Part shown: positions 23,571 through 26,226 of the stretch, in pieces
Layout: every line of letters begins with the position of its first letter
Numbering within the stretch: position 1 is the first letter of the stretch
From: Acidimicrobiia bacterium
GTDB taxonomy: Bacteria; Actinomycetota; Acidimicrobiia; Spongiisociales; Spongiisociaceae
Direction of reading: 5' to 3'
Length of the DNA stretch: 64,000 bases
NCBI GenBank assembly: GCA_011523635.1
Contig: WTGI01000035.1
Location: 39,213 to 103,212 of the forward strand
Position numbers and translations under genes: made by a program
The notes under the pieces: generated by a model
Told to the model about the DNA's origin: nothing
Seen by the model: the letters and a program-made list of their open reading frames with translations, nothing else
The model's database searches: none

Positions 23571-23965
23571 CAGCCTCCGCCCTCGCCGGTCTGGGTCGAG
23601 GCTCCGCCGTCTCCGACCGGTTCAGGACCTGTCGCGGACACCGGGATGACATCTTCGGGCAGCACCATTCCGAGCATTCTCTCTGCGATCGGCACGATCT
23701 CCCAGGGCGACTGGAGAGCTCTCTTCTCCTCCTCCAGGTGGGCCTGACGCTCCAGCTCCACCTGTATCTGCGCTTCCGTATTGCTGATCTCGTACACGAC
23801 CTCGTCGACCGCGGTCCGCAGGAAGATGAACGCCAGGAACGCGGCCACCGCCACCACCGTGTAGACCACCCAGGAGAGCGGGCGCCACCAGGTTGCTCCT
23901 CCCCCGGACAGGACCCGGAGACCGGCCGGAGCAGGAGCGGCAACCGGTAGCCGGCGCGCGGTCAC
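23570..23965 (-). CDS. ftsL: FtsL/DivIC-like bitopic division protein
   Basis: This small divisome protein has 131 residues. A Pro/Ala-rich head is followed by one transmembrane helix (about 31-50) and a coiled coil (about 53-85, EISNTEAQIQVELERQAHLEEEKRALQ). A disordered Gly/Thr/Glu-rich tail ends the protein. Sequence similarity within this family is weak, so the call rests on architecture and on position between rsmH and ftsI, with a 4-nt overlap upstream and a 1-nt overlap downstream. Confidence 0.85.
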   Translation of the reverse strand: MTARRLPVAAPAPAGLRVLSGGGATWWRPLSWVVYTVVAVAAFLAFIFLRTAVDEVVYEISNTEAQIQVELERQAHLEEEKRALQSPWEIVPIAERMLGMVLPEDVIPVSATGPEPVGDGGASTQTGEGGG

Positions 23966-24885
23966 GCCACCTTCTCCACAGCGCGGAGGCGGGCGCTTCG
24001 CGCCCTCGGGTTACGGAGCACCTCGGCCTCACCCGGCCTGATGGCGCGGCGCGCCAGAGCCGTGAGCTCGACCGGCGGCGCGACAGGAAGGACCGGGCCG
24101 GGTTCCCGGCCCTCCCCCCGCCGGAACCGGTGCTTGACGATCCGATCCTCGAGCGAGTGATAAGAAATCGCCACGCACCGACCCCCCGGACGGAGTGCTT
24201 CGATACCGGAGTCCAGCCCTGCTGACAGCGCGCTCAACTCCTCGTTCACGGCCATCCGCACCGCCTGGAAGGTCCGGCGTGCCGGGTGGCCGCCCGATCG
24301 GCGGGTGGCCGCGGGGATGGCCCGGCGGACCACCTCCGCCAGCCGGGCAGTCGTCTCGATGGGCCGATGTTCGACGATCGCTCCGGCGATACGCCTGGCG
24401 AAACGCTCCTCGCCCAGCGTGCGGATGATCCGCGCGAGTTCGGCCGGGGAGGCCTCGTTGACGATCTCATGGGCCGTGCGAGCGGCGTCCGGGCCCATTC
24501 GCATATCGAGCGGACCCTCATGACGGAACGAGAAGCCGCGCCCGCCCTCGTCGAGTTGATGGCTCGAGACACCTAGATCGAGCAGGACTCCGGCTATCTC
24601 GTCCAGGCCCTGGCTCGCCAGGATCCGGTCGAGGTGTCCGAAGTTGCCCACCACGAGCCTGAGCCGGCCGTGCCCGGGCATGCGGTCGACGGCGGCGGGA
24701 TCGCGATCGATGCCGAGAATGCTGACCGAGTCGTCGAGCCCGGCAAGGAGAGCCGTAGTGTGGCCGCCTCCGCCGAGCGTCGCGTCGACTATCACCCCAT
24801 CCTTTATGGGCGAGAACAAGCTCACAACCTCCTCCAGCATCACGGGTACATGGAACGGCCTCCCGCTCACCGGCTCTTCTCTCAT
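23962..24885 (-). CDS. rsmH: 16S rRNA (cytosine1402-N4)-methyltransferase RsmH
   Basis: It methylates C1402 of 16S rRNA with S-adenosylmethionine. It has 307 residues. The N-terminal HVPVMLEEVV, the SAM-binding VDATLGGGGHT, DLGVSSHQLDEGGRGFSF and the C-terminal AISYHSLEDRIVKHRF are all MraW/RsmH hallmarks. The ATG is closely preceded by AGGA, 12 nt downstream of one arm of a 16-bp perfect inverted repeat that could influence its translation. It overlaps ftsL by 4 nt. Confidence 0.97.
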   Translation of the reverse strand: MREEPVSGRPFHVPVMLEEVVSLFSPIKDGVIVDATLGGGGHTTALLAGLDDSVSILGIDRDPAAVDRMPGHGRLRLVVGNFGHLDRILASQGLDEIAGVLLDLGVSSHQLDEGGRGFSFRHEGPLDMRMGPDAARTAHEIVNEASPAELARIIRTLGEERFARRIAGAIVEHRPIETTARLAEVVRRAIPAATRRSGGHPARRTFQAVRMAVNEELSALSAGLDSGIEALRPGGRCVAISYHSLEDRIVKHRFRRGEGREPGPVLPVAPPVELTALARRAIRPGEAEVLRNPRARSARLRAVEKVA

Positions 24886-24896
24886 GGTTCCTGACC

Positions 24897-24982
24897 CATT
24901 GCCAGCCCTCCGATGCTTTCTTACCTAAGGGACTGCGGGCGGAGTAGGGACAATCCATTGGGTGTCCGGAGGGCTGGCAATG
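24897..24982. repeat. 16-bp perfect inverted repeat in mraZ-rsmH spacer
   Basis: CATTGCCAGCCCTCCG at 24897-24912 is exactly complementary to CGGAGGGCTGGCAATG at 24967-24982, with 54 nt between. A nested GGACA/TGTCC stem lies inside on the transcribed strand. The element fills most of the 130-nt spacer and ends 12 nt from the rsmH start, so it could form a long mRNA hairpin controlling flow into the dcw operon. Confidence 0.7.
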
Positions 24983-25015
24983 AGCAGGTCATCGTGCCGG
25001 TGGGTTTGTCTGGTG

Positions 25016-25468
25016 TCAGTCGTCGAGCTGTGGTGATTCCTCCTGTCCTCCGGAATAGGCCGCCATGGCCGATGGTTGGTAGCGGGCCCACGCCTCCGCG
25101 GCCCAGATTTCGGCGTACTCGCCGGCCCCTACGAAGATCACATCCTGCGAGAGCCCGGCGTACTCGCGCAACCGGAACGAGAGTTGAACCCGGCCGGCCG
25201 AATCGAGATCGGGACGGGTGGCGCCGGAGAAGAAGGCCCGCACCTCGGCCCGGCCCGCGGCACTCGCCTCGTCGAGCTGCCCGAGTGCTTTCTTTCTCCT
25301 CTCCCACACCTCCCACGGGAACACGTACAGGCAGCGGTCTCGACCCCTGGTCACGTAGAAGTCGCCGTCGAGCAGGTCGCGGTATTCGGCCGGGAGCACC
25401 ACGCGACCCTTGCCGTCCACCTTCCGCGACAGCTCGCCTAGAAACTCCTGGCGCCGTTCCTTCATCAC
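25016..25468 (-). CDS. mraZ: MraZ transcriptional regulator of the dcw cluster
   Basis: MraZ is a SpoVT-AbrB-fold DNA-binding protein that autoregulates the division/cell-wall cluster. It has 150 residues and two AbrB-like repeats: FLGELSRKVDGKGRVVLPAEYRDLL near the N-terminus, and DLDSAGRVQLSFRLREYAGL in the second half. It is the first gene of the cluster, divergent from the fur-like gene. The upstream region holds an inverted pair of TGGGAGGA sequences, compatible with the TGGG-containing sites known for MraZ. Confidence 0.95.
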   Translation of the reverse strand: MMKERRQEFLGELSRKVDGKGRVVLPAEYRDLLDGDFYVTRGRDRCLYVFPWEVWERRKKALGQLDEASAAGRAEVRAFFSGATRPDLDSAGRVQLSFRLREYAGLSQDVIFVGAGEYAEIWAAEAWARYQPSAMAAYSGGQEESPQLDD

Positions 25469-25506
25469 TCCGCTCGTAGTACCGTTCCGCTACCCCTCAG
25501 AGGAAC

Positions 25507-25535
25507 TGGGAGGAGTAGCCTACCACTTCCTCCCA
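25507..25535. promoter_or_regulatory. candidate MraZ operator (inverted TGGGAGGA pair)
   Basis: TGGGAGGA at 25507-25514 and its exact reverse complement TCCTCCCA at 25528-25535 are separated by 13 bp, 39-67 bp upstream of mraZ. MraZ is known to bind TGGGN repeats, usually direct repeats with 5-bp spacing. Here the two clearest copies are inverted, and only an imperfect second direct copy (TGGTA) is seen. Confidence 0.4.
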
Positions 25536-25764
25536 CTTGATGCACTATTCTTACACAAAATGACACCAGCCGGAAATCGGAGGGTGGTACATCCTTGGAT
25601 GGGTCGGGTGGGCTGGTCCGGTCGGCGTCGAGAGAGTGCCCGGGGGGAGGATCGAGGCCCCGAGGGCTAAGATGCGAACCGGTATCAAGGTCCGCGGAGC
25701 AGCAGCTGTCGCTCCGGCTTGGCACCACCCGACATATCCGGCTGACAGATTCCCTCGAGGTCCC

Positions 25765-26226
25765 ATGGCCACCTCACAGATCGAGCAACAGGTGATGTTG
25801 CGTCTCAGTTCGGCCGAGGTCCGCTATACCAAGGGACGGCGTCTCGTCATCCAAGCCTTGCAGCAATCCGACGGCCCGCGCTCGGCCCGAGATCTGCACA
25901 AGGACCTCGAGGAAGTGGTGCCCATGTCCTCCTTGTACCGCACCCTCACGACCATGTCCGATCTCGGCATCCTGGTCCGCCACCACGGCAGGGGCGGGAA
26001 TATCCGCTACGAACTGGCGGAGTGGCTGATGGGACACCACCACCACCTGATATGTAGGTCCTGCGGGACCATCGACGACATCGAGTTGAACGAACACACC
26101 GAGTCGATAATCGACGCTCTGGTGTCGGCGGCGACCGAGGAAAAGGGATTCGCGTCCGCCAGCCATTCCCTGGAGATCGACGGCGTTTGCGCCTCTTGCG
26201 CCGGGGCCGGTAGCAGCTCCGGATAG
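25765..26226 (+). CDS. Fur-family metal-responsive repressor (Fur/Zur-like)
   Basis: This is a winged-helix metal-dependent regulator. ATG 25765 (preceded by GAGG) gives 153 residues; the 43 extra track residues are not family-like. The DNA-binding domain includes RYTKGRRLVIQALQQSDGPRSARDLHKDLEE and SSLYRTLTTMSDLGIL. The hinge metal ligands HHHHLICRSCG follow, and Cys97/Cys100 with Cys142/Cys145 form the structural zinc site. Whether it senses iron, zinc or peroxide cannot be decided. No metal-transport genes are adjacent, and I saw no clear Fur box. Confidence 0.9.
   Translation: MATSQIEQQVMLRLSSAEVRYTKGRRLVIQALQQSDGPRSARDLHKDLEEVVPMSSLYRTLTTMSDLGILVRHHGRGGNIRYELAEWLMGHHHHLICRSCGTIDDIELNEHTESIIDALVSAATEEKGFASASHSLEIDGVCASCAGAGSSSG

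Follow-up and report, generated by a model that had tools for sequence, protein, structure and literature searches.

The spacer between mraZ and rsmH in a genome of the class Acidimicrobiia encodes a long RNA hairpin, and a conserved, covarying helix of this hairpin contains the rsmH ribosome-binding site. The hairpin lies within the window, which is the whole 64,000 nt stretch of contig WTGI01000035.1 that was analysed. It occupies one site per genome, always upstream of rsmH among the loci read. Comparative sequence evidence suggests that it is probably a cis-acting hairpin of translational control that hides the rsmH start and is read through its apical loop by a dedicated factor. What is firm in this explanation is the regulatory hairpin that masks the start; the step that would involve RsmH is hypothetical.

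An inverted repeat fills the spacer, with mraZ as the upstream gene and rsmH as the downstream gene, on the minus strand (Table 1). As described in the earlier note, the arms CATTGCCAGCCCTCCG and CGGAGGGCTGGCAATG are perfect 16-bp complements situated 54 nt apart; the gap between the 3′ arm and the annotated rsmH start is 11 nt. The pairing of this outer helix, termed P1, extends beyond 16 bp by way of CCTG and its partner CAGG. The sense-strand fold of a 146-nt segment is −60.5 kcal/mol (z = −4.85), which 0/200 shuffles equal, and a perfect inverted repeat of at least 16 bp whose arms lie no more than 100 nt apart is present in only one of the 32 two-kb bins of the window. A search of the 3.15-Mb assembly with the arm sequence gives exactly two perfect matches, which are the two arms themselves, and the whole element is single copy. 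The sequence is thus not a dispersed or mobile repeat, an objection that the earlier note had raised and that falls with this search.

Table 1. Parts of the RNA element in the mraZ–rsmH spacer and the neighbouring genes (window coordinates).
Feature	Coordinates	Strand	Evidence or remark
Whole RNA element (covariance model R1 match)	24891..24991	-	89.4 bits, E = 3e-19
P1 5′ arm, CATTGCCAGCCCTCCG	24967..24982	-	exact complement and covariation
CCTG, outer P1 5′ extension (partner CAGG, 24890-24893)	24985..24988	-	fold; alignment columns 9-12/109-112
P2 5′ strand	24950..24963	-	folds; own strands pair better than swapped
Apical loop, CCCTACTCCGCCC	24937..24949	-	core CTCCGCCC at 24937-24944
P2 3′ strand	24923..24936	-	folds; strand-swap comparison
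P1 3′ arm, CGGAGGGCTGGCAATG	24897..24912	-	holds Shine-Dalgarno GGAGGG (24906-24911) and AUG (24897-24899)
Short ORF ATGGGTCAGGAACCATGA (MGQEP*), begins in the arm, ATGA overlap with the annotated rsmH start	24882..24899	-	sequence reading
mraZ, upstream gene	25016..25468	-	Pfam PF02381 (MraZ), E = 1.2e-25
rsmH (mraW), downstream gene, start masked	23962..24885	-	Pfam PF01795 (MraW methylase), E = 1.1e-95

Relatives retain complementary arms, with compensatory changes. In P1, 17 of the 22 pairs display changes on both sides that preserve pairing. Cells with such changes number 93, versus 30 ± 6 in shuffles (0/500 shuffles are as high), and the signal is lost when the partner strand is slid by one, two or three columns. 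On the sense strand, G-U pairs are frequent and C-A cells are rare. The covariance model R1, which was built from alignment A1 of 50 sequences, scores 89 bits on the sense strand of the window and 37 bits on the other strand. This G-U/C-A asymmetry together with the strand bias of the R1 score points to selection on the gene-strand transcript. The inner stem is not the one first proposed. The GGACA/TGTCC pairing is absent from relatives (e.g. L018 and L020), and the conserved inner helix is a different one, P2. In 97% of 59 distinct elements, the P2 strands pair better with their own partners than with partners taken from other families.

Many variants in the class have a third helix, P3, with the sequence GGGGAGA[AC]AUCCC, and this results in a three-way junction. 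The P3 hairpin is located between P2 and the 3′ arm in L129, L132, L134, L136-L144, L146 and L147. In the window's order, a linker, GCCAGCGC, is found in place of P3. A switch by way of a competing hairpin between this linker and the 3′ arm was considered and rejected, as the linker's own pairs are no better than shuffled ones (387/1000).

The element is widespread in the class. At the family level, rsmH is present in 15/15 genomes; 14 of the loci extend upstream, and all 14 carry the spacer RNA. Within the order, rsmH is present in 114/119 genomes, and the element is found upstream of rsmH in all 90 upstream regions read (14 from the family, 16 from the order search and 60 obtained by coordinates). 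Three genomes of the order are listed without an R1 match; two of these have no rsmH match, and the rsmH match of the third begins at contig base 14. R1 matches are present in 209/296 genomes of class Acidimicrobiia. In a phylum-wide sample of 397 genomes, R1 matches 15, every one in the window's class, and the element was not found in the other classes of the phylum in this sample. Occurrence outside the class was suggested by a pattern scan of contigs that matched Streptomyces and other genera; R1 confirmed none of these. Genome records with confirmed R1 matches are mostly labelled as Acidimicrobiia or Actinomycetota bins (including L236 and L247), and a few are metagenome bins with other labels (e.g. 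L183, 'Acidobacteria').

The element is conserved more than either flanking gene, with identities of 87, 84 and 85% in L019, L020 and L021, versus 65-70% for the flanking coding sequences. Some genera of family f10 (L148-L154) do not have the element between mraZ and rsmH. At several of these loci, such as L152 and L153, the end of mraZ runs straight into the start of rsmH, and this overlap is an alternative coupling of the two genes.

The earlier suggestion that the rsmH ribosome-binding site is hidden is strongly supported, and in a more literal form than was proposed: the 3′ arm is itself the Shine-Dalgarno sequence and the start codon. The AUG of the 3′ arm is in frame with RsmH in 83/90 genomes (73 detected by a script motif and 10 by reading the exceptions), and the arm start codon is 5-8 nt downstream of a G-rich Shine-Dalgarno run. 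A covarying helix that contains both signals marks the element as a probable start-masking cis-regulatory hairpin. The exceptions include L055, where the arm start is out of frame, and L084, which displays no start there. For the window, as for four genus mates, the open reading frame that begins at the arm AUG is either MGQEP* or ten codons long, and its stop overlaps an rsmH start (ATGA or GTGA); the frame in the window has five codons and ends on the annotated rsmH start with ATGA. As the stop and start overlap, ribosomes that initiate in the arm could still reach rsmH by terminating and then reinitiating. The start annotated for rsmH, at 24885, may represent a second start (window 24882-24899, L014-L017). 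Since RsmH begins at the in-stem AUG in most relatives, rsmH starts in the class may be misannotated, and the arm AUG is probably where rsmH begins in most Acidimicrobiia. The masking does not extend to every family, as f65, f71, f77 and f63 show no obvious rsmH start in the 3′ arm.

Three parts make up the apical loop of P2, namely a run of C, a short stretch that varies and the core CUCCGCCC. The sole long run of invariant columns in A1 (50 sequences) is CCGCCCG. As CCGCCCG is present in 90/90 loci read, the set is not biased by the use of CCGCCCG to find elements. Variants of the core do occur at the class level, i.e. CUCCACCC in L155 and L166, CUUCGCCC in L170 and CUCCGCCCA in L131 and L135. 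Loop length ranges from 12 to 17 nt across families and shifts by single bases. L131 and L135 belong to family f61, with genomes of ~1 Mb, and represent a less GC-rich lineage in which the match region has 45% G+C. Here the stems are largely rewritten and the loop CCCUUACUCCGCCC is retained, which suggests that the loop is under selection for its sequence.

In the mechanism proposed, P1 would bury the rsmH Shine-Dalgarno sequence, start codon and first codons, and P2 would present the nearly invariant C-rich loop with its core. The folded state would repress translation of rsmH and of genes translationally coupled to it. A factor that reads the loop would alter how frequently the start is exposed. 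The presence of one site per genome suggests that this factor is dedicated rather than global. A stem of this stability is expected to be shut by default, and this is the main gap of the explanation. The earlier note had proposed that the element sets how much MraZ is made relative to the division genes, and this putative role is plausible. Attenuation was offered there as one means to this end; in the form of intrinsic termination it is unsupported, as the sequence that comes after the stem on the gene strand, GGUCAGGAACCAUGAGAG, contains no U run.

RsmH, the RNA-directed enzyme of the operon, would be the likeliest single candidate for the factor, and what puts it first is the likeness of the loop to the RsmH target in 16S, around C1402. 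The segment ACACCGCCCG, 16S positions 1396-1405, contains C1402, the RsmH target, and is matched by the loop at 9/10 positions in 76/90 elements, where the 16S letters are the universal ones and not the host's own; at least 9 matches are also reached by ~2% of loops after shuffling and by 0.3% of random loops with 60% GC. A scan for the pattern of the host 16S gave its sole match in an apparent rpsC coding sequence. Besides this background of chance matches, two points count against the RsmH step. In a few families the loop core differs at sites where 16S does not vary, and RsmH reportedly needs the assembled 30S subunit and not protein-free 16S rRNA (PMC5053481). Autoregulation by RsmH through the loop is therefore a tentative idea and on balance doubtful. 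In a specific form of it, likewise doubtful, the leader might imitate the decoding site of 16S and so act as a decoy: when bound at the CUCCGCCC loop, free RsmH would shut rsmH and the coupled division and cell-wall genes, and unmethylated 30S would compete for the enzyme and open them. If the decoy reading is true, an rRNA methyltransferase would link cell division to the assembly of ribosomes.

The chief rival answer to how the stem opens is cleavage by RNase III, which would cut the 20-24 bp stem, split mraZ from the remaining transcript and free the rsmH start, such that control is by cleavage and a ligand is not needed. P1 has sufficient length for RNase III, relatives preserve that length, and cleavage would account for the opening of so stable a stem. 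With a different RNA, the mraW motif of Corynebacterium glutamicum, an RNA 5′ end maps within the predicted motif, although the authors interpret this end as a transcription start (PMC3890552). Cleavage does not call for a constant apical loop, but no other part of the element is as conserved as the loop, and we regard this alternative as unlikely, though worth keeping in view.

Base-pairing control is a good deal less probable. Here the loop would pair with another RNA, such as a small RNA or the ribosome-binding site of mraZ. The mraZ leader of close genus mates does have GCGGAG, the complement of CUCCGC in the loop, but this complement is absent in L018-L022 and in the other families, although the loop there is the same; pairing of the loop with the Shine-Dalgarno sequence of mraZ is confined to close members of the window's genus and was rejected on this basis. 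Less probable again is a leader peptide, whereby ribosomes that translate a short open reading frame through P1 open the rsmH start. As read from the window, a 23-codon frame, MTCSLPALRTPNGLSLLRPQSLR, spans the 5′ arm and the loop, and different short frames are found at the same place in other families, but the first ATG is absent in some relatives (L022) and the single-base shifts in loop length leave no conserved frame, which disposes of a conserved peptide. As DNA, the two arms of the window match perfectly, but a protein-binding DNA palindrome or a mobile-element remnant is scarcely credible, as the sequence is unique in the genome, its register with the rsmH start is fixed and the covariation involves G-U pairs, which are tolerated in sense RNA alone; this strand specificity effectively refutes the alternative.

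The hairpin that masks the rsmH start shares its location with a known RNA, the mraW motif (RF01746) of the Actinomycetales, which was described between mraZ and mraW/rsmH by Weinberg et al., 2010 (PMC2864571). Both lie in the same spacer of the dcw operon, and both are long hairpins with a C-rich apical loop, which is ACUUCCCC in the mraW motif. The RF01746 model has no match in the window from 24600 to 25800 up to E = 10 and, with a limit of E = 1, none at 15 loci of the class. In a sample of the phylum it matches 10/199 genomes, none of the window's class. The loop core here is CUCCGCCC, whereas the mraW members read display ACUUCCCC or ACCUUCCCC-like loops. The mraW hairpin is also bulged along its length, unlike the element here, and the members read do not have the rsmH Shine-Dalgarno sequence and AUG at the end of the hairpin. 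A common origin is possible in view of the likeness of the loops (UACUUCCCC; UACUUCGCCC in L170).

Hairpins placed over a ribosome-binding site with a recognisable loop include the MS2 coat operator and the leaders of ribosomal protein genes, and the autogenous operators of ribosomal proteins employ rRNA-like recognition. The stems of such autogenous start-masking operators are far less stable, and the binder of the element here is only putative. UpsM of Rhodobacter sphaeroides is likewise a regulatory RNA of the dcw transcript, but it is situated before mraZ, includes a Rho-independent terminator and comes from an unrelated lineage (PMC5089854). The element matches no Rfam family, and no description of it was found in the open-access literature, most subscription papers lying outside that search. 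It appears to be an RNA family that is new although its kind is known, one that is class-wide and has an unusually constant loop. With no Rfam entry, it will be missed by annotation pipelines. Why mraZ and an rRNA methyltransferase gene head the cell-division cluster in so many bacteria is an old puzzle, and a class-wide RNA that masks the methyltransferase start and has a nearly invariant loop offers a concrete handle on it.

Upstream of mraZ, the sequence AAGTGGGAGGAAGTGGTAGG (25519-25538, minus strand) resembles two MraZ-binding boxes, which are direct repeats of the TGGGN type. With two such box-like repeats at this position, mraZ is probably autoregulated at its own promoter.
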